This document shows positions 21,737-55,954 of a stretch of DNA of 64,000 nucleotides, piece by piece. Below the pieces are notes generated by a model. It was not told the origin of the DNA and ran no database searches. It was given only the letters and a program-made list of their open reading frames with translations. The position numbers were made by a program, and so were the translations under genes. Source of the DNA: Labyrinthula sp. Ha. Taxonomy: Eukaryota; Sar; Bigyra; Labyrinthulida; Labyrinthulaceae. The stretch is from contig JAALGZ010000045.1 in NCBI GenBank assembly GCA_015227615.1, forward strand, positions 62,001-126,000, written 5' to 3'. Positions within the stretch are counted from its first letter, which is position 1. Every line of letters begins with the position of its first letter.

Positions 21737-22050
21737 ATGTCAAATATAAATATGTCGAATATAAATATAAGTAGAAAGTTGACAGAGGATTCAGGAAGAG
21801 AACAAAGTAAAGAGTCATCAAAGGAGGCAAGAGAAAAGAAAAAGAAGTACATTAAAGCGTTGCAAGAGTTGGTCAACAAGACAAAGTTCAGAGAAAGTAG
21901 ATTAGATAAAATTGCCAAAGAGCTGAGACGAGAAAAAAAAGTGAAATAAATTATAGAAATGTTTTAATGCTGTTAAAAAGTGTTGAATGTGTAAGTTTCA
22001 GTAATGAAATTAGTCTTCTTCAGTTGCTGCTTATTGACAATGAAGCATAT

Positions 22051-22179
22051 TGATGTGAACCGTTAAATTGGAATAGATTAATATGTACGTTAAGTTAGAG
22101 TTTTTGACATAAGCATTAAAATTGAAATAAAGTGACAAAGTTATAAGCTTATATAGAAGACCTTTTGGACTATAAATCA
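22051..22179 (+). repeat. 5' LTR, 129 bp
   Basis: Pairs with 29098-29226. TGAT...ATCA termini. It is unusually short for an LTR, and the palindrome at 22180 follows directly. Confidence 0.95.
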
Positions 22180-22191
22180 TTGTTCGAACAA
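22180..22191 (+). other. Palindrome at the primer-binding position
   Basis: TTGTTCGAACAA is a perfect 12-bp palindrome directly after the 5' LTR. The usual tRNA-complementary TGG start of a primer-binding site is absent. Confidence 0.7.
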
Positions 22192-22264
22192 CGTTCCCTA
22201 TAGCCGGAGGACGTATATTTATATATTTTAGGCAAATACAAACACGAAGAGATGCACACGGTCA

Positions 22265-23990
22265 TTGTCAAGAGCAACTAAAGACTTCATCTTTGCGTCC
22301 CTGTCACCGAGAAGGAAAAGAAAGCCTATAAGAGTTCATAAAAAGAAAGTGATGGAGCAAGAAGATACCAAAAACCCAGATGAAGGCACTCCTTCGTTCC
22401 CAAGACAGACATCTGGACCTTCGTCCCCGCCCTCTCCTAGGGACGATGCACAGTTCCAGAGATATTTTCTACAGCCGCATCCGGCCCCGCTGATGCCACC
22501 ACCGTTTCTACGCTCCCTGAAACCAGAGGATGTAATCTCTTTTCTACATAGCTTCCACAACGCTAATGCTGCGGTCAGGGTTAGTAGAGGTCAGGCTCTA
22601 AGCGTCCAGCCTTATATTGACGGCCGAGTTATCAGGAAATTGAAAGAAGCAAAAGGATACAGTACCTCTGCTGAAATCCTTAAAGAACTGGATACCATTG
22701 TAGAAGAATATGATCGAAGTAAAAAGGAGGATGTGCTCCATATTTTAGATAGTAAACTAGCCTGGGATCTCACTGAACCCACGGAAGAAAGAAGAGTCAA
22801 TGCATACATAGACACAGTCCTCGAGATCATGAACGGGGACGGCCTAAAGAATGATAAGAAAATAGAAACTAAGACAGTTAAACTGGTGCTCAAGAACCTC
22901 CCTAGCAAATATGAACTCGAACCTTCTGACCACGATAGACTCAAGATTTTATTATCTAATGCAAGGGCCAAGATTTTATCCCCAGTGGAAATAGAGCTGC
23001 TTGAAGCGGGGGAAAGGAATATGAAGAACAAAGGAGGTGATCCGGTCACCCATGAAAAGATTAACAATCTCAAAAAGTTACTGATATACAAGGCATCGGT
23101 CCTAAGAAATACAAGAAGGGAAGCTGAAGATCTACATGGACTTGAAAGAACCAAGAGGAAAAATATTCTGGGTTTATCAGAAGGAATCTCGCAGAATACG
23201 GCTGGCCAACTAGTGGTCACACTCGCCAACCTCTTATCTCCAAAAGCATCCTCTTTACCAAATCAGAGTTATGTTAATGCAGTAAGGAACATCCAAGCTA
23301 CAGCTACCCCATCATCCCATAACCTGGATCTCAACAGCCCATTGAAAAGCCCGGGTAACCCTGCTCCAGGTATTGTATGTTATTTTTGTGGTGGTGATGG
23401 ACATCGAGTAAGTGAATGCATGACTTTAAAGAATATTAATATGGAAAGGGCTTCAAAGGGACTCTCCCCAGCCTATGTTCCAAGATTCAATAGGAGAGTA
23501 AATGATAGAGGGTACACGAACAACAGGAGACCCAGTTTCAAAACGCCAGTAAAAGAACGTCGTAGTTTGCCGGATATCATGGTCAAGAATTTTGATGGTA
23601 TGAATGGAGTAAGGTTGAACTCACAGAAAGCTCAAGTTGAGTTATTTTATCCAGAGCTCAAGTGGACACCGGTAAAAGGCGCGTTGGATTCTGGCGCAGG
23701 AATGACAGTGGGAGGAGTCAAAGCCTATAGCAGCTACTGCACTAACCTGGAGACTTTAAGAAACGATAGACACGTAGTCCTTCCGAATGGATCTCGTATT
23801 CCAGTGGCCATGCAAGGATATGTCGAAGCCCGCGCAAGACATGAAAATGGAAAAGTAAACACCTTCAAGCGCCTAAGGGTATTTCTTTCGGATTTAGATG
23901 ACTGGGATTGGTTTCTTATAGGTTTTCCAGAGCTAGCTGCACTCCACGCAACATCGGATCAAGTACTTGCTCAAGTAGCTGAAATGCCAA
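22265..23990 (+). mobile_element. gag and protease part of the 22-kb element
   Basis: A Pro-rich, basic start (after about 22265) leads into a helical capsid-like region with FLHSFHNAN (about 22535). A zinc knuckle CYFCGGDGHRVSEC lies at about 23378-23419. The protease active site LDSGAG is at about 23684-23701, with a WFLIGFPEL strand near 23910-23937 that matches the usual second conserved protease block. This is the normal Ty3 position for protease, upstream of RT. Confidence 0.85.
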
Positions 23991-24619
23991 AGCCATCCCT
24001 CAGAGACTATGTAAATAAATAGGATGTAGGCCTGGGGAGAAAGAAGAACCGCGCTTTCCCTTGGGAGCCACCAGATAGCGAGTCAGCTACAGGAATTCAG
24101 GAAGGAAAAGTGAGGGAAGATATTAATTTATTGGACGATCAAGATTGGCAGCGTTTTAAGCAACATATTCAGCCACCTCTGGAGGAATATGATACTTCAC
24201 ACAACTTATTTACTAAAGAAGCGGAATCACTTGGAGCGTTTATTATAGAAGAGGACAAGAATAATTTGGCTATAAAACCGTCAAAGAGAATTGAAGGAAT
24301 GAATCAGCAAGGTGATGATAAAGCAGAAAAGGTTAGAGAGTTTCAAAAACTCGACCACGTCGAATCGGATCCCATTTTTATTGACTCCATGGAAAGAGAT
24401 GTAAGCATGCATTTGAAGAAGGAACAAGGATTTGGCGAAAATATAGATCTCAGAACGGAAGAAGAAGAAAAGAAGTTCCTCGAAAAGGATGATGAGGTTA
24501 TTCTTCAGGCAATAGATGATAAAATAAGAAGCATTTCAGGACTTGAAAAGGATAAGTTGCACCAGCTGAAAGATATATTGATCAAGAACAAAAGGTCATT
24601 TGGATTGAAGTCTTAACCG

Positions 24620-27600
24620 GCCAGGATGTCAAAGATGGACCCTATTATTTGTTTCCTGAAGGATGAGAAAGCGGAAATAATCACGCAGCCGCGCTGGATG
24701 GGACTTCACAAGATGGAGATTTTAAGAAATAAGCTCAAATCAATGGTGGATCGCGAACTTATCAGGCCAACGAAAAATCCTATTTATGGTTCTCCAGCAT
24801 TTTTAGTTCATAAACCAGGAAGACCAGGAGAATGGATAATGGTAGTGGATATGAAGCTCTTTAACTCTCATACAAGGAAGACACCACTTATTATGCCGAA
24901 CCTCGAGCAGCAAGTTTCTTTTACAAAGGGGGCAACTGTGTTTGGATCATTCGATATCCTCAGTGGATTCGATTACTTACCAGTAGCAGAAGATTCAAGA
25001 AAATATTTTACCATAGTTACCTACTTCGGATGCTATGAGATGTGCGGCTCTCCGCAGGGATGAGTGAACACTCCACAACTTTTTCAAAACAGGATGCTAA
25101 CAGATATTTTGAGACCCCTGGATTTATTTGCAAAGACTTCTAATGGAGTTATACAGTGGATAGATGATACACTTCTCTTCTCAGAGAGTTTCGAAAAGTA
25201 CCTTTTACTTTTGAACGGGTTTTTAAATAAGTTAGTAGAGCTAAATCTCAGGCTGAACATCGCGAAGTGCAGCTTTTATGACACTGAAGCAACATGGTGC
25301 GGCAGAAAGATAAATAGGTCAGGTTGGAAATTCAGTGAGAAGTACTACAACAAGATTCTGAAGACCCCAAAGCCCACTTTTGCTCACGAGTTGGCCCAAG
25401 TTTTGTATCTTTGCAACTGGTTAGGACCGAGTATACCCCCGCCTGGCAGAACTAAGGGATTTCTTTTCGCCGATGCTCCCCGCCGAAAGATCTATGAAAG
25501 AACTTAAAAAGATGAACCTATCTTTGGAATGGAACCCTGAGCTTGAACTCAGATGGGAGGAGCTGCTGAAAGAACTTAATGATGCTTCAAAAAGGAACAT
25601 GGCTCAGTACTCAAAGGATATGAGTCTCTGCATATTCATGGATGCCTCGATAAGCTTCTGGGCTTTTATTTTAACCTCCTGTGAAAACGCGAACCCGGCT
25701 GAGGAAGGATACGACAAAACTATCGACGAACAGATACACGCCCCGTTATTCTTTCTTAGCGGCAAATTCCAAGGTCCACAGCTTGGATGGCATATCAGTG
25801 CCAAGGAACTCTACTCACTAGTGCACGTCTTTAAGCGCTTCCCGTATCTCATCCTTGGCCAAGACAAAAGATTGACGGTTTACACAGACCACAAGAATCT
25901 GGTATACATACTCCATCCAGAATGGAACCCGAAAACAGCGTATCTGGATAGGCTATATCGATGGAGCCTGTTGTTCCAGCAAGTGGACATGACAATAAGA
26001 CATGTTCCAGGAAACAAGAACGTCCTGGCGGATTTGATCTCACGATGGGGAAATCCTGACTATCTTCCGAACAAGAATCAGACGGATACAGTGGAAGAAA
26101 GCGCACTTGGTTTAGCTGCTTTAGCTGAAGGAGCCTTTAGTGAAAAAAAACTTGACAAGGGTAGGATAAGTTTTCTCAATCCTTTTTATACACATAGTTG
26201 GGATAAGGTGAATTATTCTGAAGTAAGGGAAGCACAAAAGAAAGCAGGTATTATTAGGGACACGGAATCAAATGAAGTGGATCTAAAATATGAAGGGGAT
26301 AAGTTGATTATTCTGGAGCCGCTGGTGGCAAGACTTATTTTGCACAATCACTTGGCATCAAATCATTCGTCAATAAAAGAAGAGGAGAGGACTTTATCTT
26401 CGTTCAAATTTACTCTTCCCAGGAAAACGTCGGTGTTGGATATCATAAAGAAAGTCAGGGACAATTATATGCATTGTGGTGCTAGACCAAAGCTGATTAG
26501 AAGAAGTTTAAATATGAGCCGGTTGAGCAGAGTTCCCAGGGAGATAATTCACGCAGATTTTCTTTACATCAACAAGTTTATCCATTACTTAGTTTTCACT
26601 GACAATGTAACGAGGAAGATATATTTAAAACACTGTACATCGGACACGGCTGAAGTTGTCGCTACAGCACTTTTGGAATTTGTTGGAAATTTTCAGGTAC
26701 TAGATGGATTTACTCTCTACACGGACAATGGTAGTTATTTTGCGGGAAAACTTTTGGAAGAGGTAAGTAGGTTGCTTAAGTTTACTAGAAGTTTCTCTGT
26801 TCAATTCGCTCCTTGGACTAATGGCACTGCGGAGGTGAGCAACGCCAAGATAATAAGATTAATAAGAGCTTTACGCAGCGAGTTCAGAATATATGAAGAA
26901 GATATAGGCAAACTTACGGGTGTGATCATGAATGTAATCAACAACTCCCCGTCTACTATAAAAGCTGGATATAGCCCCAATGAGTTATTCATGAACACGA
27001 GAGCTCTCAGTGGATCAGAAATGCTACTGGACAGGGATACTATTTTTATACCTTTAAGGAACGGGGTAAGGACACCAGACAATATAGATGCTGTGATTGA
27101 GAAGTGCTTGGAGATCAAAAGAATATGGAATGCAAAGTTAGATCAGGCCTATGAAATGACGAGGTTGAGAAGAACCAAACAAAACAATAGGATGAATTCG
27201 AAATTCAAGCCGGACACGCTCCAGTTTATGCCCTCAGAGTGGGTTTTATGTAGTAAAGCGGGAACACTTGTAGCCAGAGATAAGACGAAGCCTCTTTGGA
27301 TTGGACCTTACAAAGTGATCAAGGCTGTTCACCGAAATGCGTATCTTATTTCTGATTTACTGGGTAAAGATAGCATAGTTCATGCGTCAAGGTTATGGCC
27401 CTATGCACCCTCGCAGTTCAGGCCTTCAGAAGAATTGATCAATCTATTCAAAGTAGATAAAGCTGACCTAAAAGTGGAAAAACTCCTTGATGTGCAATTT
27501 GAACAGCGCAGGTGGTGGATCCTCGTCAAATGGCTTGGCTTTGAGGAATCGGATAACTCGTGGGAGCCGATGCACACTCTAGCAGAAGATATCCCAGAGG

Positions 27601-27620
27601 TAGTAGCAGATTTCCTTTTA
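24620..27620 (+). mobile_element. pol part of the 22-kb element: RT, RNase H, integrase, chromodomain
   Basis: RT: IMVVDMKLFN, FGSFDILSGFDYLP and the catalytic WIDDTLLFS box (about 25155), where the more usual YxDD is WIDD. RNase H: FMDAS, VYTDHKNLVYI and a DLISRWG end (about 25640-26050). Integrase: a HADFLYI first catalytic Asp, YTDNGSYF second Asp and NGTAEVSNA Glu (about 26550-26840). Chromodomain: VEKLLDVQF, ILVKWLGF and NSWEPMHTL (about 27470-27580), the mark of chromoviruses, which often steers integration to particular chromatin. Confidence 0.9.
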
Positions 27621-27734
27621 GAAATGGATACCTCTACTTCCAAGAGAGCTTTAAAGAAGTTTCGCAATATAGTTAAGATGAAAGGTAGAACTAGGGTGAA
27701 CTCTATTTTATTCGTCAAGAACCCGAATTACCCC

Positions 27735-27960
27735 AGCCAATCGCCTGGATGGTTACCAGTGGAAAACACATACTTAGGACTTTAGTAGCTGTTCATGGAT
27801 GTGGTAACTGGAAGGAAATGATGTTGGAAAATGCTTTGCCGGGAAAGAATAAGCAGCAGTTGATCACTCAAGTTCAAAGAATTATTCATCGTCAGTCAAT
27901 TATATCTTACCAGGGTATACATTTAGATATTTATAGGGTTGGCAAAGTTAACAGGTCACT
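27735..27960 (+). mobile_element. Myb/SANT-like DNA-binding domain in the 22-kb element
   Basis: Directly after the chromodomain. The pattern is SPGW..., then VAVHGCGNWKEMMLENALPG and KNKQQLITQVQRII. This matches Myb/SANT spacing (first helix Trp, GxGNW, LPGK, then a recognition-helix-like Gln-rich segment), and closely matches the cleaner domain at 53.53-53.72 kb. Myb/SANT modules bind DNA or histone tails, so here it probably guides the element protein to chromatin or to its own DNA. Confidence 0.75.
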
Positions 27961-28319
27961 GTCAGATGCTTTCATTGTGAACAAGACACCTTATTTTGAT
28001 GAACGAAAATTATTAAGATGGTGCTTCAATGTTATAAGATTTTCATTGAATGAAGAAACTTTATCTACACTTAAAGTTCCATTTTTCAGAAGGGAGAAGG
28101 ATTTATTTATTCGTGAAGTTTTGAACAAGTTGGACACTATTGAAGAATTTGACGATTTTTATCCTCATTTGGGATCATTCAAGCAGACTCTTTCTTGGAT
28201 ATGGTTCGGATATGAAGTTAATGAAGCGGTAAAGGAAGATGACAGGCAAATTTTAAGATGGTTTAATAAAAAAAAAAGATCAGATCGTAGAACTTTTTAA
28301 GAAGAATATTCCTGCAGAG

Positions 28320-29070
28320 GTAGATCAAGTACAGGGTGTGGAATTGAATTGTGAACACTTTCATTTTACTTTCTCTCTCAGGGATAGAAATATTTATGAT
28401 GTTGTTGCGGTTAATGAACAAGATGTCAGGAAGTCTACTTTATATTATGTGCCTGAGAAGGCCAGAATTTTAAATGCGATTTATTACACCCGGATTTCAA
28501 GATGTTATATCAAGAGTTTATGCCTGTTTTGCCCAAGGTTATTATTATGGACCCACCTTGGAGGATTGGGTCAAAGGAACCAACACGTGGTGGCTCGTTA
28601 AATTACCAATGTTTTTCGGATAAAGATTTGATGACTTTGGACTTCTCGTATTTTCAAAGCACTGGATTTTTATTATTGTGGGTTGTTAATGCAAAAAGAA
28701 ATATAGCTGAACAGCTAGTAGTTAAAAATGGCTACAAAATACTGGATACAGTGGTTTGGGTTAAAGTGAGCAAGAATCAGAAACTTCAAGTTGGTCCAGG
28801 CTATTATTTACGACACGCTTCAGAATTGTGTCTATTATGTGGAAAAGGTAACTACCGATCTATAATGTCGCATGGTCAGGTAGTAAACGTTATATTTGAG
28901 CAACGATACTCTCATTCTAGGAAGCCAGATGCTATATATGAGTTGGCTTCTAAGTTAGTGCCAGGTGGGCCGTATTTGGATGTCTTCGCCCGATTTTCTA
29001 ATGTTCGCAGCCATTGGAATTCTATTGGACTAGAAGTTACATCGTCGGTGACTGGTACCTATTTTAATTA
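28320..29070 (+). mobile_element. MT-A70 adenine-N6 methyltransferase domain in the 22-kb element
   Basis: MT-A70 enzymes transfer a methyl group from S-adenosylmethionine to N6 of adenine in RNA (METTL3 type) or DNA (MTA1/AMT type). The catalytic VIIMDPPW motif is intact at 28538-28561. After it come FLLLWVVN, VVWVKVS, GYYLRHASELCLL, SRKPDAIYELASKL and PGGPYLDVFARF, the regular MT-A70 strand order to the C-terminus. About 60 residues of N-terminal extension (from about 28320) are shared in style with the other two copies. Whether it methylates DNA or RNA cannot be told. Confidence 0.88.
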
Positions 29071-29097
29071 AAGTTTATTCATTCTTGAGAGGGGGAA

Positions 29098-29226
29098 TGA
29101 TGTGAACCGTTAAATTGGAATAGATTAATATGTACGTTAAGAGAGAGTTTTTGACATAAACATTAAAATTGAAATAAAGTGACAAAGTTATAAGCTTATA
29201 TAGAAGACCCTTTGGACTATAAATCA
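29098..29226 (+). repeat. 3' LTR, 129 bp
   Basis: Pairs with 22051-22179, about four substitutions apart, preceded by a polypurine tract. Confidence 0.95.
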
Positions 29227-29485
29227 ATATACAAGACTGAGAGGAGAACAATCAAAAGGTTTACGTCAGAAAGAAAACCATACCAAAGAAAAAAATAAAC
29301 TCTCTGCCAAGATTTCCAGAACCAAAACCAAAATAATCCATGATCTTCTTAGAAAGCTGGTAGATTCTCTAGAGTCAAGTTGTTATATTTCAAATGACCA
29401 ATACAAGAACACACAAAAATATGAAACCAGAAAATATAACAAGAGAAAACTCAAAAAAATAGTGAAACTGTATTTATTTAAATAG

Positions 29486-38380: not shown

Positions 38381-41300
38381 TATTCTCTTTAGGTTAAAAT
38401 TATGTTGATTATTACTTGCTCTATTCGGTCAGAATTAGAGTCAGAAATGATGTCTATGATGATTATTAATGAATTAATCTTATAATGACGTCATTATCTA
38501 AATGATTGAGGAATGGTTTGCACAAAAAAAAAGATGTAAATCGAGACAGTTTAGTATTAAAGTTTTAAGAATACCAATTAGGCGTGTTTAACGAGAGAGT
38601 ATTAACAAGAGCTAAATTTTTGGGAAACGGAAAATTTGGAAACAAAGAAACCGTTATGAGTACCGGCAACACTCAGGCAGTCGAAAGACAGTCACCAGTC
38701 AATGAAGCGCAAGATTCCAGAACAATTTCAATTGTTTCTGTGAATGTTGACCGTCTCACCTCCTACAAGCTCAGGTCTCTCGAGGAATATGCCCTAACTG
38801 CCGATACAAACGTCCTTGCAATACAGGAAGTTGGTAGTAAAGGAGCGGAATACCTTGAAAGAGCGAGCTTCTCTAGACTAAACTGGTTTAAAACAGATAT
38901 CTCTAAGAATAAAGACACAGAAAAGGAGAAAAACAATATTTTAGCAACATATTTTAACAGAAACATGGATAAAGAAGCAGAAAAAGTATTTGATGAGGAT
39001 AGAATTTTAGGTGTTAAAACTAAACTTGTCTCTAGAAGCTACTACATCATCAATATCTATGCACCACACACGGGAAAAACAGCGAAAGAATACAACCAGT
39101 TTCTAACAAGAATCCAGTAAGCGATCTCACTAAAAAGAAAAAAAGACCTCATGCTAATCTTAGGTGAGTGGAACGCACAAGTACTACACAACGAAGTGAG
39201 CAACAACGGAAAATATGGATACACGACAAGAACGAACAGGAACGGCAAAATACTTCGGGACTTTTTGAAAAAGTACAATCTGGCCATCGTCAACTCATAC
39301 TTCGCAACTGGTGCAAAGAATACAAATAGTCATGTAACATACTATTCAAAGCACAAGAATAATCAGAAACGTTCAGAAATAGATTTCATCATAACGTGTA
39401 AAGGCAGCATCCCACTATTCCGGAAAATCCGGATAAAAAGAAAGTTAGGAGAAGAAATCCACAATAGAACAGAGTTTGATCATCAACCAGTTGAAACACT
39501 AGTTTCACAAAAGTTCAGGAAATACTCCAACAAAAACCCAAGGATGCATTGGAACTACAAAGAATTCTTCAAAATCGATGCAAATCGTTGGAAGCTAAAC
39601 GAAGAAATACGACAAGGCTTTGAGGAAGAACTAGCCAAACTCCCACCACCCAACAACACCGAAAGGCAACAAAGACTAAACTTTCAAACATTCAAGTCAA
39701 CAATAAAGAAAGCTGTTGATAACTGCATACCACTGGTAGCCCACGAAAAGCTCTACAGAACATCTTCAGATAGAACAGATACCTTGTTTGAAATAAGAAG
39801 AAGATTATGGAAAATTCTAACTGAAAATGAATCTAAAATACTAAAGAAAATAATAAGAAAAAGTACCCTGAGCGACTACAAAACCTGGTTAGACCTTCAA
39901 GTAAGAAGAATAGATACAGCTATGGCAAAGAATGATATTCACGAAGCTTTTAAACAAGCAGAAAGGATAGTAGGGAAAAAGCGAAAACCTCAACGCACCA
40001 TTACCATGGAAGATGGAAAATACCTAAACGATAAAAAACGAGCAAAAGTATTCCAAGAATATCTTGAACTCACTTAAAGAAACAGAGAAGAAATTGTCAC
40101 AGATACTGAACTGGATATTCCTGAAGCAAAAACCGAAGATATCAACGTATCTCCTCCGACTTTAGAAGAACTTGAAGAGACAACGAAAACGCTAAAGAAC
40201 TATAAAGTGCCTGGACCTGATGGAGTTACAAACGAAATCCTAAAGAATAACAAAATGACACTAAAATACTTGCAACAACTTGCAGAAGAACTATTTTTAG
40301 ATCCAAGTGGCCTGAACAAAGATGAACTCATTTCTCTTTCTACTGGAAACATCATATTCTTATACAAAAAAGGAAATCATCAGCTTCCTTCCAACTATAG
40401 GCCAATATCCTTGCTTAACACTTCTTCTAAACTAATCACTAAAATAATAAACAACATACTAAAGAATACCCTGGAAAGAACAGTAGGAAACTACCAGGCT
40501 GGGTTTCGAGAAAATACAGGAACTAGACAAAAAATTCAACTTCTCTTGAACCGCTGTAAACTCAGCCAGATGGAGAACTCGAAAACACTTTGTCTTTTCA
40601 TAGACTTCAAAAAAACTTATGACTCCTGTAAACATCCCTTCCTTGAGCTTAGTTTAAAAGAGAGAAAAGTTCCTACTAACTTTGTCAATATAATTATTTA
40701 CCTATATAAATATGCTGCAGTTCAAGTGAAGATAGGTAAACACATAAGTGACAGAGTAGAAATAAACAAAGGCGTGTTGCAAGGTGATTCACTAAGCCCC
40801 ACGTTATTTGTACTTGCTCTGGAATCTCTGCTTCGAAGGATAATAAAGAAAATAAACTTGAGCTTTCCAGAAGCAGAATTCTCTTTTAAAAATATTCTTG
40901 GATTTGCCGACGACCTTTGTATCTTAAGCAGAGATAGAAACATCTTAAAACACTTCATTCAATATACAGAAGAGCTCTCAAAATTGTCTGGCCTAAAGAT
41001 AAATACACAGAAGACTCAACTCATGGGAATAGTCAGGAGAAGGAAGCTCAAAGATAAGCTTTCGGACACTGCAATTCAACAGCTGGTCAATAAATACACC
41101 CGTACCTCTAGTTCCAGAAACTTACCGTCAAAGGATGCCCTTGTAGGATATAAAGCACAGTGTCTTGGAGCGGGAACCGTGTTAGTTCGAAGTAGAAAGT
41201 GCACTACAGCAGTTGCTGTAGCTGAACAAAACTTCCTTTATAATAACATCCCAATAGAAGAAGAACTGGAAACCAACCTTGGAAGCATCAAAGGAGTAAA

Positions 41301-42249
41301 AACCTTTAGATACCTTGGAGTGGATGTAACAGCAACAGCTGACACCCACGTTAACCCATTTGCTAGAATACGCGCTGCACAGGAAACCCTCCATAAACTG
41401 CAACCGATACTGAGGAATAATATGCTGGCTGTCAGAAGGAAGAAGAACATAGTGAAAGCACTTGTCGTCTCAAAAATCCAATATGGCAGCGAGTTTTGGA
41501 ACCTGGAAAACAAAGATGCATCCAAAGCCATGAACAAACTATCCAGAGATGTAAAACGCACCCTCCTCCAACCTAATCCAAAACAACCACTTGAACACAT
41601 AAAAAAATCTAACATTTTCAAAGCTGGTGACATAAACATTCTCGAAATAATAAAAGAAAAGTAAAACAGTTGGCTAGAAGCGTGCCCAGCTGCAGAAACG
41701 GATATAGAACTGGTGGAATGCTCAAGGAAACTTGAAGCACACCTCTTCCCACAGAATCCTATCACAGCTGAAAACCTGAGGTCGCCTCTGGAACACTTTG
41801 ACGCAACACTGGAACAATATGAAGCCTGCCCTCTCCTTCACCCGCCACCACCCGGAGAGAGCGAACCATCACCGCAACAATTATCCTCCCAAACTAAAAT
41901 CACGAACCCAATATCTCCATCCACAATTATGAATGACTAAAAAGAGAAAAATCTACTTCAACAATACAGGAACATAGCTCAAGACACTTTAGTTCATCAC
42001 TTGATAAAACTCCCATGTGCATTTAAGATAACTTCGACCCTCGGTTGCTTCTTGGATGGATAACTGGAGCAGGCTCAACTGGATCTCTTATTAAACCATG
42101 ATTCTCTTGTAAAACAGAGCGATGAGAGGCAGCAGAAGTAAAAAACTGGTGCAGGACATCTCGATATGATCAATGAACGAACTTGAAACAATTTGTTTGA
42201 TATCAGGAACTCTGGATAGAACACACGACGTTATCTCAATCTCCTTCAT

Positions 42250-46400: not shown

Positions 46401-46622
46401 TTAATTTTTTTTAACTTCCATCCTGATTTATTTTCATATATTTTTTATTTAAAAGTTCCATCCTGTTTCATTTTGAAATATTTTTTATCTAAAACCTGCA
46501 TCCTGTTTCTTTTTGAAATATTTTTTATCTAAAACTTTCATCGTGTTTCATTTTGAAATATTTTTTATCTAAAACTTCCATCCTGTTTCATTTTGAAATA
46601 TTTTTTATCTAAAACTTCCATC
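46401..46622 (+). repeat. 40-bp tandem array, target of the LTR element
   Basis: Units of exactly 40 bp with core ACTTCCATCCTGTTTCATTT, starting at 46401, 46441, 46481, 46521, 46561 and 46601. The last unit is cut at 46622 by the LTR element and continues after 55902. Confidence 0.9.
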
Positions 46623-47176
46623 TATAACAGTGAGATACTTCTTATCTAGCTTACTGCTATTCTTTTGCTTAAAAATATTCTATTATTATTATTATAATTT
46701 ATATTTATATTATTATGAAATATTAATATTTTATATCATATATTATTATAGTGTCTATTATAGGTAGTTAGAGAATAGTCAATATGGCAATACTGTAGTT
46801 TCAGATAACACATAAAATATACAAAATATACAGATTTAATACAGTACAGAGTTGTTATCGACTGTACACGAACTAAGACACCCCAGGAAAATTAGCACTG
46901 CAAGATATAACTTTTATAAACCATATTTTGTGGTCTAAACAACAGAAAACCTTATCACTGAGAAATTAGCTATTTTAGACACCCCCATTTATTTTTAGGG
47001 TATACTGAAACTGCGAGAATAGAAAGCTATCTTTTGAGCATATTTCTCTATATTATACACTTATATTACTTTATACGATATTTTTACATTATTTCTAAAG
47101 TTTCTCACTTATATTTTTACAACTTCTACCTAGGTTATTCCAACACTTACTCAATCTTTGATAAAGTGAGGTTAAA
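46623..47176 (+). repeat. 5' LTR, 554 bp
   Basis: Over 99% identical to 55348-55901. Confidence 0.95.
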
Positions 47177-47189
47177 TTGATATCAATTT
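47174..47189 (+). other. Palindrome across the LTR/primer-binding junction
   Basis: AAATTGATATCAATTT, a perfect 16-bp palindrome overlapping the last three LTR bases. No TGG start of a tRNA-type primer site follows the LTR. Confidence 0.7.
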
Positions 47190-47230
47190 TCAAAGTGATT
47201 AGCGCTAAAAACAAAAATAAGAGAGTTAAG

Positions 47231-49500
47231 ATGTCAAGTGAGAATCCTAAAATAACTACTAGGAGCTCTAGAAAGACTCTAATGGACCAAGTTAGAGTTT
47301 TGGAAGAGATGATGGAAACGAATCGGAATAGCATGCCAGCCGAACTTTCCACCAATGTTAATACTTTATTGCAAGTACAGAAGCAGACGCTAGAAACTGC
47401 TTTAGAAACAGGAGTCTATGACTCGGCTATTGTAAAAACGGTAACTCAAGGAGAAGATCAGTCGGAAAATAATGAAGATCAAGATGCTACTACACCACAG
47501 CAGGTGAATACAGAACAAGAGCATGATCAACATCCGGTGATAACAACACCAACAGTTAAGAGAAATATATTTGAAAATAGTTCTGAGGACTCTGTAGATA
47601 CCTCAGATACTTCTTCTACTTCTGATAGTGATAGTTCAGAATCTGATGGGAATAAGAAAGGATCTAAAAAGAAGAAGAAGAAGAGGAGACTAAGAAGACT
47701 TAGAAGGAAAGACAGGAGATACGAAGAGACCTATGAGAACAAGCCGTTTCTGAAGTCTCTTATGCCAACTGATATCATAGAATTTTTAAAAGAGTTTGAT
47801 GGATGGGAGCGTAAATTAGCTCATAGATTTAGATTAAAACATGCTGATTTAATGATTTGTATTCATCACAATACTCTTGAACAATTATCTACTATGCAAA
47901 TAAATACTACAAGCGACAGAACTATTAGAAAATACTTGGACTCAATAAGAAAGGAGTACGAGGAAGAGTCAAAAAATACTTTATTTGATAGAATTACTAA
48001 AATCAATTTTAGCCCTGGGATGGGTAGTCTACTTACTTCGGCTCAAAAACATATCTCAAAAGTAGAAGAAGAAATAGGGGGCCTATCTTTAGGTAGAGAC
48101 TCCAAAAAAGACTATGTAAACTTGTTCTTTCAACACTCCCTGCTATTTATATTAAAGCAGACCTTAAGAATATGATTGAAGCAAGATCATTAACTAAATG
48201 GGCTAAATTGAAGACATTTATTTTATCGCAGAGCAAGGTCTTATCTCAGTTCGATTGGAACATGATTGACCTAAGAACTAGGAAACAGACAGAAAAAGGT
48301 CATCCTAGGATATTTATTTCAGGTACGGGGCGTATGAGTAAGATTAAGTCGAATAAATCTTCGACTAGGTCTGAAAACAAGTCTGTAAATACCAGCATGG
48401 GAACCCATGGATCATCTTCAAGATCGAAAGAAGGTGTATCTAGAGGACCCATAACAAAGTATTCTCTGAAGGATGCTCAATCTAGAGTATCTGAGATAAG
48501 AAATGTTAATACTTTTCCAGATTCTTTAAAAGCCCAATTAGTGGATTGTTTAGTTAGAGGTCTCTGCACTAAGTGTAGAGATGACAAACATCCATCTAAT
48601 GGCTGCGACCTTAGTAAAGAGGAAGCAATAAAGAAAAGAGAAGAATACAATAGGAAACACCCAATAAATATTAGCCAGCTGTTGGAGGGTTTTCCTAAAA
48701 TAAATACTGACACAGCGAATACTGTCACGGTTACAAAGAGTCAAAGCAATTCCAACGCTATTAGTAATGACGTTCCTTTAACCGATATTATGGCGAATCT
48801 AAACACTAATAAAAAGTCAACAGCGAATATGATAAGAACTAAGGAATATTTAGAGGACATAGAATATGAAAAAGATTTAATATCAGAGAATCTTACTTAC
48901 TGGATGAATCAATCTGAAACATTTAATAAATATGATGGGGATGAATATTTAGAGAAACAACTTAAAACAGGAATAAAAAATAGAAAATATGAAAGTAAAA
49001 TAAAAAATAGAAAATATGAAAGTCAAATAAAAAATAAAAAATATGAAAACGAAATAAAAAATATAGATAAAGAAAAATTTTATAGTAATGAACATTTAGA
49101 CTCTGATCTAATGGGGAAAGAGATTAAGATGAAAAATACAAAAATATATGAAAGTCATAGTCATAATAAAAAGATGTTAAACAACATTCTAGCAGTAAAT
49201 AGTTCAAGAATAGAAGAGAATACTCTTAATACAACAAAGTCTTATGAAACCTTGAATAAAAATAGCAAAATAGAATATGAAGATCATCAAGGGATCAAGT
49301 GGCGAAACTTCTCTAGAATAAAGAAAAAGTTAAGTACTGCGTGTAAGAGGACTAAGTGTATAAATTCTAACTTTATTAATAGTATAAATACACAGGAGGA
49401 CCTCTCCAATAGTTTTCCTGACCTAGACAGTTATGAGGAATCATGGGAGTTAGGGTATGGAGAAAATACCAAGAGTGACTTCGATGATTTCAACAAAGAA
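47231..49500 (+). mobile_element. gag part of the 46.6-kb element
   Basis: The start is Ser/Asp-rich and phospho-site-like (DTSDTSSTSDSDSSESD), then a run of Lys/Arg, then PTDIIEFLKEFDGW (about 47765), which corresponds to the EDVISFLHSFH position in the 22-kb element. A zinc-knuckle-like CTKCRDDKHPSNGC lies at about 48568-48610. The C-terminal part holds Lys/Tyr-rich repeats of the form IKNRKYES (about 48970-49060). No DSG/DTG protease motif is found in this part. Confidence 0.75.
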
Positions 49501-49649
49501 AAGATAAAAGAAGAGAATGAAATAAAATCTATTTAATATCTCAGTTACAAAACCACTATAATAAAAAACACCTTACGAAAAATCAGTTGGAAGAGCTGAA
49601 ACAGTTGTATTTTAAATATATAGAAGCCTTTGGAATCAGGCAATCGATA

Positions 49650-52600
49650 GCCCAGATGTCCAGAATACCCCCAATGCCAGTGATCCTTAAACCAGATGAT
49701 AAACCTTTTAGAGCTCCTGCGAGAGAAATGGACGCAGTAAAGAAAGAAGCTATGAGAAAGAAAATACAGGATCTCATCGACATGGGTATGCTGGCTCTCG
49801 AACCTGATCCTCTTTATTCATCACCCGCTTTTATGGTACCGAAGAAAAATAATAAATGGAGAATGGTAATAGATTTAAGAGACCTTAATAAAGTAGTTGA
49901 GGTAAGTGGTGCTTCTTTAGTAGATTTAGAAGCTCAACTTAACTGGTTGCCTTCAGAGATTAATCACATGGCGAGTTTCGATGCATTTAGTGGATTTGAC
50001 ATGATGCCGATTAGTAAGGAAGCAGCAAAATATTTTAATATTTCAACACCTTTTGGCTGCTATCAATTATTGGGCAGTCCTATGGGTTTTATAAATACCC
50101 CGTTTATCTATAGTACGAGAATGATTAGTTTTATATTGGGGGGTCACCAAGGTGTATTCGGTACCCCTAATCAAGGTTGTCTACAATGGTTAGATGATAG
50201 CCTTATTTATGTCAACGAGTTTCAAAAATTTAAACAAGTGATAGAAACTATACTAAGTAACTGCATAAAATACAAGTTGAGATTGAATGCAGTTAAGTGT
50301 GAATTCTATACTACTGAAACAGAATGGTGTGGCAGAACAATTACTAAGAAAGGATGGAACTTTAGTCAAAGACACTTTGACAAAATACTATCCATGGAGT
50401 GTCCTAAGACCTTAGGACAACTTGAAGATATCCTTTATGTAAGTAGTTGGTTAGTACCAGCCTTACCAAAACTTAGCTTGATAAAAAGCGAATTACAATC
50501 CCTTGCATTAGAATTAAAAAGAAAATTATTCTTAGACAAAGGTAAAAGAATACCAAAGAAGTTCAGGAGCAAAATGAATATAGAAGGGAGTGTGGAATAT
50601 AATACTCTTAAAAATAATTTTAATATGTTCAAAAAGGTATTGGCAGCCGCAGCTAAAAATACTTTGAAACACATAGATCCTGAACAACAATTAGAAATAT
50701 ATACTGACGCTTCAGATAACTATTGGGCTGCTGTTATTACTATAGTAACCCGCGAAAATAAAAATAATATAGTAAGCCAACAAGAAATAAAAAATTTGAA
50801 TAAGGTAGAGAGTCATTCGGATGAAAATATGGAGGAACTTGTTATGGATGAATATTATTATAGTGAAATAAATCCTGAGACAGGAAAAATAAATTCAATA
50901 TTTAATAGGGTTATGAGATTATCTACTCAAGAACCATTATTAACAGATAGTTATGAGAAAGAAAAGAGTAACAACAATACCTATTCGACAACTAAGAATA
51001 AAAATATAAGACTAGTTTCAAAAGAAAATATAGCAAATATACAGAAGTGGAGAAAAATTATTAAAATACAGAACTCTAACCAGATGATCAAGGAAGATCT
51101 ATTAGAGTGTATAAATTCTCTTGCAGAAGAAAAAATAAATATCGAAACTGCTCTAAATATTATACAGAATATATTATCTACTGAAGTCTTGGATAAGAAG
51201 TTAAGTATGGAAATATTAAACACTCTTAGAAAACCAGACTGGAAGACTCTAATACCATATTTAAGAATGAGTATAAATAATTTAGAAAAAGACAATATTT
51301 TAGTAGCAACAACTGATGAGAAAAAATCCAGGATCAAAGATGATCAGGTGGTTACTCCAGTATATTTTTTATCTGGTACCTTTAAAGGGCCTGAATTGTC
51401 TTGGTCGGTATCTGAAAAAGAAATGATTCCAATAATAAAAGCCTTACTCAGGTTTGAATATATGACTTCAAGTACCCTTAAACCTATAAAGGTGCTGACA
51501 GATCACAGAAATCTTATATATATTTTTAATCCGCCTAAATCAGTTAAGTCATCTTCCTTAGGCAGATTGCAAAGATGGGCTATTATGCTCCAGAGGTTCA
51601 ATATAGAAGTTTTACACTACTCTGGAGAGCATAATAGGTTCACTGATTTATTATCAAGATGGGGTTTTCCTAATATAGTGGAAGAACAAATACCCAAGAT
51701 AGTTAGAAAATATGATTCTGAAGGGAATATAATATTTGGAAAATAAAGTTATTAGCCAATGCAGTTACTACTAGATCCAAAAATAAGAATATAAATCCTT
51801 TAGACTTAGAAAAAGTTTTAGAAGAACCTGATATTTTAGAAGAAGAGTATGTAGAAAAAGATGAGGACTGGTATCAATTCAGAGATGCCTGGGTATCTTT
51901 TCTATATCCTTCTTATCCTAAACAATGGGAGCGTATTAACGCAGCAGATGTTAAGAAACATCAAGAGAAAATAGAGTGGAAGGATATTTATCAGAAGAAG
52001 AAAAATATTATTCTATTAGACAATAAAGTTTTGATACCAGAAACTTTGTTAGATCGTTTATTATTTCATACGCATGTTGCTGAGGGTCATACTTCAATCG
52101 ATGCTGAATTAATTACTTTGTCTGTGTATTCATTCACAGTAACTAAAAAGGAGATAAGAGCTAGACTGAAAATACTAAACAACCTCTACTTACATTGTGA
52201 TAGGTTTCCAGCTCTAATTCGAAGTCCTTTAGGTAGATTACCTCATGCAACGAAGCCTAATATTTTATTACACACAGACTATTTATCAATATATAATGGT
52301 TACTTACTTTCCATAGTTGATGATTATTCAAGAAAAACTTGGTTATTTTATAAAAAACATTGAACTGTAGAGGGATATATAGAAGGTATAACTAAGTGGG
52401 CTGCTATTCTTGGTATTTCGGGAAAAGCAGTCATTGCCTCTGATAAAGGTAGCCATTTTTGTAATGAAGCTGCTAGAGAGTTAGATAATATTATGGGCTA
52501 CAGTAGACGGTTATCTATAGTTTATTCTCCTTGGTCAAACGGACCAGTAGAAAGAAGAAATAGGGAAGTTATTAGACTATTTAGAAGTTTGACCAGCGAG

Positions 52601-53390
52601 ATTGGATTACCACTTAATGAATGGCCATCACTGTTGAATACAGTCATGGGGCATATAAATAATCATCCTATTAAATCAAAACTTAACCTTACTCCAAACC
52701 AAATATATAGTGGGAGAAATATTGAAGGAAAAATTCTTGCCTTGGACCCTGATTTAGATGAACCTTTAGTAGAAAATAATATAGTTAATCCCACAATACC
52801 GATTTGGAATAAGAAACATTTTATACAATATCAGAATACAGATCAATTAACGAAATATATCAAAGAACTTACCAAAGAGTTAGGTGAGAACGATAAAAAG
52901 TTATTAGAGTATCTTACTATGGAAAGAGATAGACATCAAAAACGATATAATAAAAATATTCATATGGATTATCTACAATACGGTCCTGGTGATTACGTTA
53001 TGTATTCTATAGCGGAAACTAGTTTAATAAAAGATAAACTTCAACTTAGATGGTTGGGACCTGTTATTATAGAAAAAATTACAGGGAACAATTTATATTT
53101 AGTCAAAGATTTACTAGGTAATACTATGGAGGTCCATTCCAGAAGAATTAAATATTATGATGGAAAAGGCTTACCAAACAATGAATTAATTAAAGAAGTT
53201 TATTTATATAATTCAGGACGTTTTTATTTAGAAGAAGTATTAGACGTACAAGAAATAGATGGAAAAATATATTTGAAAGTTAAGTGGAAAGGTTTAGAAG
53301 CTTTAGAGTCTGATTGACAATTATTTGAAGCTCTGTGGAATGATGTTAAATATTCTATAATAAAATTTTTGCAACAGAATAAAGATAAGA
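49650..53390 (+). mobile_element. pol part of the 46.6-kb element: RT, split RNase H, integrase, chromodomain
   Basis: RT shows WRMVIDLRDLN, ASFDAFSGFDMMP, LGSPMGFINTPF and WLDDSLIYV (about 49855-50215). RNase H begins with IYTDASDNYWAAV (about 50697) but resumes only at PVYFLSGTFKGPELSW (about 51355) and VLTDHRNLIYI, ending DLLSRWGFP (about 51670). Roughly 190 residues, rich in Asn/Ile/Glu/Lys, lie between. Integrase shows LLHTDYLSI, ASDKGSHFCN and SNGPVERRN (about 52270-52565). The chromodomain LEEVLDVQ and LKVKWKGLEAL lies near 53228-53300. Confidence 0.88.
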
Positions 53391-53529
53391 CTTCTCTGAT
53401 TAACTCTTTATATGAAAAATATGTAGTACCTCATAAGAAGAAAAATTCTGCTAATATAGTATATTATAAATCATACCCAGAGAAGTTAAAGTTAGAACAT
53501 GATGGAGTTTTACCATATCTTACTCAATC

Positions 53530-53720
53530 TAAGGGTTGGACCGATTACGAAGATTATTTATTGAAAAGATTAATAAGAGGATATGGTTTTGGTCAATGGG
53601 AGAAAATATTGAATAGTAATTGTTTACCAGGAAAAACTAGATCTCAAATAATAAATAGATCAAGAGTATTAGTTGGTAGTCAAGCTATTTTTCTTTACCA
53701 TGGATTAAAGATCGACTTAG
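53530..53720 (+). mobile_element. Myb/SANT domain in the 46.6-kb element
   Basis: GWTDYEDYLLKRLIRGYGFG then QWEKILNSNCLPGKTRSQII has the Myb/SANT pattern: W near the start, acidic first helix, G-x-G-x-W, LPGKT and a basic recognition helix with NR. The tail FLYHGLKIDLDI is shared with the other two copies. Confidence 0.88.
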
Positions 53721-54049
53721 ATATTATAAAAAGAGAAAACGATAGAAAGGTATCCCCAAGAAAGAACGGTCTACTTTACAATAATGAGAAGCATTTGAGT
53801 ACTGAAGAAAGAAAAATTTTAAAAGAAAAAACTTATAATTATTTCAAGGATCAGCAAGACCCTTTATTAGAGAAAAATATTGGTATACCTATATGGGATA
53901 AGATTAGTCAAAATCGTATTAGTTACGAACAGAAGAAGAACTTATTAGAATATTGGAAAAATAAAATTTTTATGTTCGAAGAAAAAGACAATAATCAGGA
54001 GGTATCTATATCCTTGATAGATGCAGAAACGGAGCAGGGATTTACACCT

Positions 54050-54330
54050 ATTGGATTATTAGATTCAGGGGCTTCAGTTACTTGCACCAGCCTGAAATCA
54101 TTACCCAGAAACAATCAATATAATATAATTAGCAAAGATGAATATCATAGAGCACATTTATATTTATATGATGCTAACAATAACCCTACTATGACTATAG
54201 GGTATGTGGCATTGGATGTGATCATTACTTTAGGAAATGGCGAAATTCAAATACCTAAGGTAAAAATACTGATCACTGACGCCCCTAAATGGAATTATTT
54301 TTTATTAGGAAATGATATTTTGAAGAAGTT
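54050..54330 (+). mobile_element. Retroviral-type aspartic protease placed downstream of integrase
   Basis: LLDSGASVTCTSLKSL (active site about 54062-54073) and YFLLGNDILKKLGANP (about 54297-54345) are the two conserved blocks of a retropepsin, with a normal spacing of about 75 residues. It lies between the Myb and MT-A70 domains, whereas Ty3-type protease normally lies between gag and RT. Confidence 0.85.
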
Positions 54331-54559
54331 GGGAGCAAATCCTATAAATATTTTACAAAATAGAATTAATTATTACACACGACAGTTGCCGAAGGAGAAT
54401 AAGGTGATGCGCATTGGTCATAAGACAGAAAAATATAATTTAACAGAACAACACAGAAATTTAATAAGAGACTTAGACTTAGATATTAATCTCGAAAAAG
54501 TAATAATTTTATCCAGAGAAATTTTAAGAAGAAGAATGAGAACTTATTGAAATCTTTAG

Positions 54560-55340
54560 TTCATTTTTATTATGATCATTATGATGAAAAGAATTTTGTA
54601 TCCCAATATAATGATGTAAGAGTAAAAGCTGAATATTTAGGAGACAATGAATTTAAATTAAGAACTAATGGAGAAGATTATAAAATATGGGTAGCCCCTA
54701 AGTATTCTACTTATGCTACTATAGATATATTAGATGAAAGAAGTTATCTGATGATCAAAGACTTTTCATTTAAAGCTTTGGTGGTCGATCCTCCTTGGAG
54801 GCAAACAAGAACTAGTCCTACAAGAGGAGCAACTGTACCTTTTAGTTGTATGTCTGATGAAGAAATTTTATCTATTCATTTGTCGAAATTTATGAAAGAT
54901 GGTTATTTATTTTTATGGACTGTAACTAACAAGTTAAGATTAGCCTACGATTGGATGGAGAAATCTGGATTTAAGTACCTTGATTTTATTATATGGGATA
55001 AGAGTACTAAACATGACAACGATTTCTGCAGTCAAGGTAGTTATTTATGACATAGAAAAGAACTTTGTTTTTTAGCAAAAATTGGTGAACCTGGAGAAAG
55101 TTGGAGACGACAGAAAGAAGCTGATTTATTTAGGGCTGCAATTTCTACTCCGATGAGAAAGCCGAACGAATTCTATGATTTGATTGAAAACAGCTTACCA
55201 GGAGGTTTATATTTAGAAATATTTGGAAGAACCCATAATTTGAGAGATAGATGGATTACTATGGGAAACGAGATTGATCCGTCAGCAGATAAGAATAGTT
55301 TTCCTATGTTCAAATTACAAGGATTTGATCATCATAAAAA
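54560..55340 (+). mobile_element. MT-A70 adenine-N6 methyltransferase domain in the 46.6-kb element
   Basis: An N-terminal extension (VKAEYLGDNEFKLRT, WVAPKYSTY) precedes the intact catalytic ALVVDPPW (54775-54798). Then come PFSCMSDEEIL, GYLFLWTVTN, FIIWDKST, RKELCFLAKIGEP, MRKPNEFYDLIENSLPGG and YLEIFGRTHNLRDRW, in the canonical MT-A70 order. It is clearly homologous to the 28.3-29.1 kb domain but diverged. Confidence 0.9.
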
Positions 55341-55347
55341 GAGGCGG

Positions 55348-55901
55348 TATAACAGTGAGATACTTCTTATCTAGCTTACTGCTATTCTTTTACTTAAAAA
55401 TATTCTATTATTATTATTATAATTTATATTTATATTATTATGAAATATTAATATTTTATATCATATATTATTATAGTGTCTATTATAGGTAGTTAGAGAA
55501 TAGTCAATATGGCAATACTGTAGTTTCAGATAACACATAAAATATACAAAATATACAGATTTAATACAGTACAGAGTTGTTATCGACTGTACACGAACTA
55601 AGACACCCCAGGAAAATTAGCACTGCAAGATATAACTTTTATAAACCATATTTTGTGGTCTAAACAACAGAAAACCTTATCACTGAGAAATTAGCTATTT
55701 TAGACACCCCCATTTATTTTTAGGGTATACTGAAACTGCGAGAATAGAAAGCTATCTTTTTGAGCATATTTCTCTATATTATACACTTATATTACTTTAT
55801 ACGATATTTTTACATTATTTCTAAAGTTTCTCACTTATATTTTTACAACTTCTACCTAGGTTATTCCAACACTTACTCATCTTTGATAAAGTGAGGTTAA
55901 A
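55348..55901 (+). repeat. 3' LTR, 554 bp
   Basis: Pairs with 46623-47176, followed by the CATC target copy and the remainder of the 40-bp repeat unit. Confidence 0.95.
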
Positions 55902-55954
55902 CATCCTGTTTCTTTTTGAAATATTTTTTTTGTTGAATTTGTTGGTTTGTATTT

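Follow-up and report, generated by a model that had tools for sequence, protein, structure and literature searches.

Relatives of p1 and MTA1/AMT1 fused to the Pol C-terminus of a chromodomain-bearing Ty3/gypsy-type retrotransposon family in Labyrinthula

Results

We analysed a 64,000-nucleotide stretch of the genome of Labyrinthula sp. Ha (assembly GCA_015227615.1, contig JAALGZ010000045.1, positions 62,001 to 126,000 of the forward strand; hereafter the window), the assembly containing it being 50.8 Mb in 153 contigs. The window holds a Ty3/gypsy-type long terminal repeat (LTR) retrotransposon, element 1 (22051-29226), in which gag, reverse transcriptase (RT), RNase H, integrase and a chromodomain are followed by a Myb-type segment and an MT-A70 domain that ends shortly 5' of the 3' LTR. 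Element 1 belongs to a chromodomain-bearing Ty3/gypsy-type family with relatives of p1 and MTA1/AMT1, known from the ciliate MTA1 complex (MTA1c) that writes N6-methyladenine (6mA), fused at the C-terminus of Pol; this anatomy leaves hardly any room for doubt. Element 1 measures 7,176 bp from LTR to LTR, and the 22-kb extent given in a sequence-only reading of the same DNA does not stand if a size was meant. Its features are as follows (E, expectation value).

22047..22050 (+), target-site duplication ATAT of element 1, 3' copy at 29227-29230, from comparison of the flanks
22051..22179 (+), 5' LTR of element 1 (129 bp), direct repeat of 29098-29226
22180..22191 (+), palindrome TTGTTCGAACAA directly 3' of the 5' LTR of element 1, at the primer-binding-site position
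22232..24022 (+), gag-like frame with a CCHC knuckle at residue 383 (zf-CCHC E=7.4e-4, under cut-off), a DSGA aspartic-protease motif at residue 486 (from motif positions) and an in-frame stop at its end
24023..25507 (+), Pol pieces through RT (RT at 24617-25507), split by stops (RVT_1 E=1.1e-3, under cut-off, and 1.3e-7, over it)
25425..27785 (+), frame with RNase H (~25623-25982; RT_RNaseH E=1.9e-14), integrase core (~26535-26798; rve E=1.6e-7) and chromodomain (~27471-27614; Chromo E=4.1e-7)
27735..27970 (+), DNA-binding part resembling p1/Myb, with a frame break close to its start (Tetrahymena p1 query match at 27767-27928; identity to locus L030; family profile)
27971..28534 (+), connecting region from the p1-like part to the catalytic domain, containing two of the frame changes given below (alignment of other types with L030 and L043, two intact relatives)
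28535..29035 (+), MT-A70 domain, MTA1/AMT1-like, DPPW intact (Pfam PF05063 E=3.5e-31)
29083..29097 (+), purine-rich stretch 5' of the 3' LTR, by its sequence a likely polypurine tract
29098..29226 (+), 3' LTR of element 1

The two LTRs of 129 bp differ by 4 mismatches (125/129 nt identical, 97%). Element 1 is decayed, its coding region being cut by stops at 24020-24022, 24614-24616 and 25061-25063 and changing frame near 25.4-25.5, 27.7-27.8, 28.26-28.30 and 28.46-28.60 kb. The sequence-only reading had placed an MT-A70 domain with intact DPPW inside the LTRs, and the PF05063 match at 28535-29035 bears this out. RT, RNase H, integrase and a chromodomain, which it had seen upstream of the module, all give Pfam matches, that of rve scoring 31.9 bits and thus slightly under its cut-off of 32.6; domain order and LTRs agree with its proposal that a chromodomain-bearing Ty3-type element had captured the Myb and MT-A70 parts. 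Its Myb/SANT-like domain survives as a p1 homologue, through the family profile and the 69% identity over 173 residues to the uninterrupted relative L030 (C115:45825), and drew no Pfam match even at E<=1 in the frame-broken copy itself.

The association of these domains recurs throughout the genome. In a PF05063 search of the assembly the best 150 of 354 candidates were scored, from which all MT-A70 counts derive, and the searches with the window's p1-like segment, with Tetrahymena p1 and with PF00665 were each taken to their best 150 matches. On their own strand, 135/150 MT-A70 matches were preceded by a p1-like match at a distance of 0.3-3 kb or by an integrase match at 1-4.5 kb. In the downstream and opposite-strand controls the Tetrahymena p1 query gave 1 and 0 matches, the window p1-like query 0 and 0, and integrase 0 and 1. 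The MT-A70 domain lay 660-1215 nt from the p1-like matches of the window query and 1968-2493 nt from integrase, and it fell inside open frames of at least 1000 amino acids in 53/150 cases and of at least 2000 in 19/150.

Twenty of the best 150 MT-A70 loci were read at about 9-10 kb each. Direct repeats flank 19 of them, with repeat identities of 80.9-99.8% (two repeats being cut by a contig end), and the MT-A70 match ends 25-65 nt 5' of the 3' repeat. When the repeat ends were allowed to shift by at most 8 nt to TGT...ATA, 14 of the 17 loci with usable ends showed perfect 4-5 bp target duplications around the LTRs, compared with a 4-nt match in 0.75% of trials at random places. Four of the 20 loci (L012, L024, L026 and L028) retain a single open frame from gag to MT-A70 of 2278-2358 amino acids, and each C-terminal region read has one MT-A70 domain. 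Given the domain E-values and the genome-wide recurrence, the module is not a chance resemblance. An absence of profile matches or a one-off fusion would have told against the sequence-only reading; the matches exist, and recurrence across the genome rejects the one-off fusion. A host gene merely lying beside an element is rejected by the flanking repeats for 19 of the 20 loci, the twentieth (L016) being a likely host gene. The idea that every LTR element of the genome carries the module was likewise rejected: L058 and L059 are integrase loci without it, and are of Ty1/copia type by the domain order read from their frames.

The family is of Ty3/gypsy (Metaviridae) type, as assigned by domain order, LTRs and target duplications; in L028, for example, RVT_1 (E=4e-14), RT_RNaseH (2.2e-19) and rve (5.5e-9) follow one another in that order. 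Chromodomain scores (PF00385, cut-off 25.1 bits) exceeded the cut-off in element 1 (30.2) and L030 (32.0) and fell under it in L028 and L025 (24.2), L009 (22.5), L011 (17.5) and L020 (16.6). Two architectures were found. Element 1 has its protease motif in the usual place, where the gag frame ends, and in one sublineage the motif is displaced: L009, L012, L024, L026 and L028 have their sole D-S/T-G-A/S/T motif between the p1-like and MT-A70 parts, and with the motif of a second element in the window, element 2, they give the order gag-RT-RNase H-integrase-chromodomain-p1-protease-AMT1. The frame of L009 starts after a stop and covers gag only partly. Profile scores for the displaced protease are weak (E=0.008-0.06, under cut-offs), so its call rests on the motif and the conservation of that motif.

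The p1-like part was compared with known structures by means of a profile built from five retrotransposon copies of different families. Searched against the PDB, it aligned best with Tetrahymena p1, a subunit of MTA1c, along residues 22-158 of that protein (E=6.3e-28). c-Myb came next among the families, at E=7.4e-6 over 44-46 residues; the homology to p1 therefore reaches far past the Myb fold. Generic Myb/SANT was rejected as a full description, since p1 leads every other PDB Myb by some 22 orders of magnitude. Judged by sequence, the Myb-type part of the element is a homologue of the p1 subunit of MTA1c, the ciliate 6mA complex. The retrotransposon segments align with the p1 genes of the host over 63-139 residues at 30-44% identity, and a p1 tree parts them from the p1 proteins with weak support (73/75).

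The MT-A70 part was assigned with a profile of 23 retrotransposon domains, from which the host gene L016 was excluded. Against the PDB it scored 207 bits with MTA1, 143 with METTL3, 81 with METTL14 and 54 with a METTL4-type chain, and the single domain of L009 scored 134 with MTA1 versus 103 with METTL3. A 12-row profile that included L016, and so leaned to MTA1, left the order unchanged (210/146/71/46 bits). These scores disfavour an RNA enzyme of METTL3/14/4 type and indicate that the retrotransposon MT-A70 part is nearest MTA1/AMT1. The link to the ciliate MTA1 complex at which the sequence-only reading had hinted thus becomes specific, through p1 homology past the Myb fold and an MT-A70 domain nearest MTA1/AMT1; of the MT-A70 comparison it had proposed, the profile part gave an answer and the trees left the deep forks without resolution. 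AlphaFold modelled the region from p1 through protease to MT-A70 poorly (mean predicted local distance difference test score 49.5), only the MT-A70 core being fairly confident. Foldseek matched the predicted structure to METTL3 and MTA1 alike, so the structure supports the fold and not the subfamily. The catalytic motif of the 23 domains reads DPPW in 15 (including element 1), DPAW in six, DPPY in one and DAPW in one.

The host has its own candidates for the 6mA pathway. L016 (G000:C91:220767) lacks flanking repeats, consists of a 327-residue frame with MT-A70 alone and groups with Tetrahymena MTA1 in the tree (90/93); by sequence it is likely to be the host AMT1 gene. Two stand-alone p1 genes, L044 (C1:1284458) and L045 (C100:136117), share 51% and 48% identity with Tetrahymena p1. 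With a likely AMT1 and two p1 genes, the 6mA pathway seems present in the host. A METTL3 query, for which 150 of 353 candidates were scored, found nothing closer among these than the AMT1-like gene of the host (44% identity); a host writer of N6-methyladenosine (m6A) in RNA may be missing or split by introns. Of further host proteins, ribosomal protein L3 gave its top scores with plant ribosome entries, and a search for light-harvesting families found none.

Both parts of the module have been maintained. The ratio of nonsynonymous to synonymous polymorphism (pN/pS) was 0.13, 0.17 and 0.27 for MT-A70 in families A, B and C, 0.18 (family B) and 0.03 (family C) for the p1-like part, and 0.09, 0.18 and 0.17 for RT in the three families, in that order. 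Rows entered the calculation only if open over the domain concerned: in family B 6/9 for RT, 8/9 for the p1-like part and 9/9 for MT-A70; in family C 5/5 for MT-A70, including the divergent L023, and 4/5 for RT, integrase and the p1-like part. Values are absent for RNase H of family C (0 rows) and for the p1-like part and RNase H of family A (1 row each). The p1-like and MT-A70 parts are thus under purifying selection, roughly like RT.

In ten copies compared by Spearman correlation with 2000 permutations, the pairwise identities of integrase, p1-like part and MT-A70 correlate at 0.67-0.78, and 1-7 of the 2000 permutations were as high. In integrase the most distant families compared share 27-31% identity, which makes the association of module and element an old one. 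The parallel divergence of the three parts favours old joint descent without proving a single event.

Element 2 (46623-55901) is a second MT-A70 LTR element in the window, much younger than element 1 and also interrupted.

46619-46622 and 55902-55905 (+), target-site duplication CATC of element 2
46623..47176 (+), 5' LTR of element 2 (554 bp), 99.5% over 555 columns versus 55348-55901
47177-47186 (+), palindrome TTGATATCAA directly 3' of the 5' LTR of element 2
49521..51743 (+), RT and RNase H of element 2 (RVT_1 E=1.9e-19, RT_RNaseH E=2.7e-21)
53522..53926 (+), p1/Myb-like domain of element 2 (PF00249 E=1.5e-7; PDB p1 E=8.8e-11, first of 49)
54053..54112 (+), DSGA protease motif between the p1-like and MT-A70 parts of element 2 (RVP E=0.03, under cut-off; motif read)
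54769..55272 (+; C94:116769-117272), MT-A70 domain of element 2 with one in-frame TGA (E=1.6e-21)
55348..55901 (+), 3' LTR of element 2

The Pfam scan gave no rve match in the stop-split integrase of element 2 and likewise no chromodomain match. Outside both LTR elements, the window has a separate RT frame at 40207-41664 (RVT_1 E=1.2e-32) and, at 18-449, a repeat array with 24-nt spacing.

Perfect palindromes of the form TTG...CAA lie directly 3' of the 5' LTR in 16/16 loci read (L009-L012, L014, L015, L017-L020, L022-L024 and L026-L028) and in both elements of the window; 10-nt palindromes begin at just 0.17% of window positions. Their middle varies by family, with TTGGATCCAA in 12 loci, TTGAATTCAA in three and L023 scored as 8 nt, in addition to TTGTTCGAACAA and TTGATATCAA in elements 1 and 2. 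The usual LTR primer-binding site is complementary to a tRNA, with TGG. Among the four palindrome types only TTGGATCCAA fits the TGG rule. The palindromes suggest an unusual mode of priming or primer-binding site and common descent.

Discussion

The overall best explanation, and one to which we lean, is that of an old retrotransposon family carrying a fused p1-AMT1 that methylates its own DNA or its surroundings. The Pol-derived p1-AMT1 protein would methylate adenines at ApT, during or after integration, probably borrowing the host partners p2 and MTA9, and the mark would open the promoter of the element or resist silencing. In the accessible text of PMC9174199, MTA1c methylates ApT, MTA1 is the catalytic subunit, and p1 and p2 help to form a DNA channel; AMT1-dependent 6mA at ApT is tied to transcriptionally permissive chromatin in that of PMC12695648. 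Because AMT1-dependent 6mA goes with permissive chromatin, we infer promoter opening or resistance to silencing as its effect. By analogy with the ciliate system, we give even chances to a mechanism in which 6mA writing by p1-AMT1 opens the chromatin of the element. A single-chain p1-AMT1 methyltransferase may write 6mA on the family's own copies as an anti-silencing device, a narrower proposal that we make more tentatively. The sequence-only reading had suggested self-marking with 6mA or m6A for escape from silencing or for steering integration; methylation of the element's own DNA appears to be the likeliest role.

Several observations weigh against this interpretation. Lineages A and B carry DPAW, including the copy L012 with near-identical LTRs (99.8%), and the alanine of DPAW would correspond, by the D209A numbering, to Pro211 of MTA1, catalytic according to the available part of PMC9174199. 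The same source, as far as accessible, states that 6mA writing in ciliates needs four subunits and that MTA1 binds S-adenosylmethionine stably only with p2; no equivalent of p2 or MTA9 was identified in the element, and the host was not searched for them. The trees neither show nor reject a single origin of the retrotransposon MT-A70 domains (approximately unbiased test, p-AU 0.52). Neither upstream marker was found for 15/150 MT-A70 matches, of which one is the likely host AMT1, three lie in frames of more than 600 amino acids and 11 are others; one of those three shares its 2164-residue frame with RT. Conversely, 58/150 of the best window-query p1-like matches have no scored MT-A70 match downstream, and only 46/150 of the best integrase matches have a p1-like or MT-A70 match downstream. 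Such unpaired matches may stem from the limited match lists, from decay or from elements of other types; L058 and L059, of Ty1/copia type, are two of the integrase loci concerned.

The DPAW copies also bear on an alternative that we consider unlikely for the family as a whole, in which p1, the MT-A70 fold and the chromodomain act as a tether that holds the integration complex on open chromatin bound by the 6mA writer, catalysis being secondary or lost. The module comes immediately after integrase and chromodomain in the polyprotein, and the helix-turn-helix of p1 touches DNA in the MTA1c model described in the available text of PMC9174199. The departures from DPPW, in lineages A and B and, as DPPY and DAPW, elsewhere, would also be in keeping with a tether, the domains of A and B being still constrained; but DPPW is kept in 15/23 retrotransposon domains, and conservation spans the whole catalytic domain. 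In the DPAW lineages the tether role is as good an explanation as methylation, and both roles could hold in different lineages.

A role within the replication cycle, with the complementary DNA (cDNA) marked for shielding from host nucleases or for discrimination of self from other, is less probable again. As part of the polyprotein, the enzyme would presumably travel with RT in the virus-like particle, but the sequence offers nothing that separates marking of cDNA from marking of chromatin. MTA1c, moreover, was assayed on double-stranded DNA according to the accessible part of PMC9174199, so that finished cDNA would be the only obvious substrate. Slightly behind it in our estimate is methylation of the element's RNA, whereby m6A would affect packaging, translation or sensing. 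MT-A70 enzymes do include METTL3, and the METTL3 query, with only the AMT1-like host gene as best match, is consistent with a host m6A writer that is missing or intron-split; against it stand the specific affinity to MTA1 over METTL3 and the presence in the same chain of p1, which belongs to a DNA enzyme. That host genes were transduced once and carried as passengers without function is very improbable, for although many copies are decayed and retrotransposons do pick up host sequence, MT-A70 has a pN/pS near that of RT (0.13-0.27) and the module is kept across subfamilies 27-31% identical in integrase and in open frames of more than 2000 amino acids.

If self-methylation by the fused p1-AMT1 is true, a mobile element owns half of the cell's 6mA-writing complex and uses a mark of active chromatin against silencing. 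Selection has kept the module throughout an old element family, and copies with DPPW, with DPAW and without the module, compared in one genome for methylation and activity, provide a natural test of the role of 6mA. MT-A70 families are described as relatively static in eukaryotic evolution in the accessible text of PMC12695648, which mentions no copies borne by retrotransposons. The family also shows that, where a eukaryote genome has not been masked, mobile elements can dominate its count of MT-A70 genes.

Comparison with known systems

The family shares with chromoviruses the LTRs and the order Gag, RT, RNase H, integrase and chromodomain, and differs from them in the extra p1-AMT1 module and, in one sublineage, in a protease motif that sits after p1 and before MT-A70. 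DIRS elements rely on a tyrosine recombinase. Some of them carry Dam-like N6-adenine methyltransferases (cited in PMC5890265, as far as its text was available) and are thus, like the present family, retrotransposons encoding an adenine methyltransferase, of a bacterial Dam type as opposed to the MT-A70 domain and DDE (rve) integrase found here; the sequence-only reading, which knew of no adenine-methyltransferase equivalent in retrotransposons, was mistaken on this point, although the enzyme family is a different one. The cytosine-methyltransferase retrotransposons of dinoflagellates and charophytes (PMC5890265) likewise have a retrotransposon protein that has taken up a DNA methyltransferase, but the enzyme family is unrelated, the elements are LINE-like or DIRS-like, and the accessible portion of that paper mentions no DNA-binding partner subunit. 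We found no report of a retrotransposon-borne MT-A70, AMT1 or p1 in the accessible text of the open-licence PubMed Central literature, most subscription papers and preprints lying outside this search, and no relatives were confirmed in viral contigs or GTDB genomes.

Ciliate MTA1c consists of MTA1/AMT1, MTA9, p1 and p2. The retrotransposon family resembles it in its homology to p1 residues 22-158 and its MTA1-type MT-A70 domain, and is unlike it in holding the p1 and AMT1 parts in one polyprotein, with no MTA9 or p2 part identified in the element. Cytosine and Dam-like methyltransferases were known in retrotransposons before; the piece captured here comprises the 6mA writer of eukaryotes and the DNA-binding subunit that partners it.
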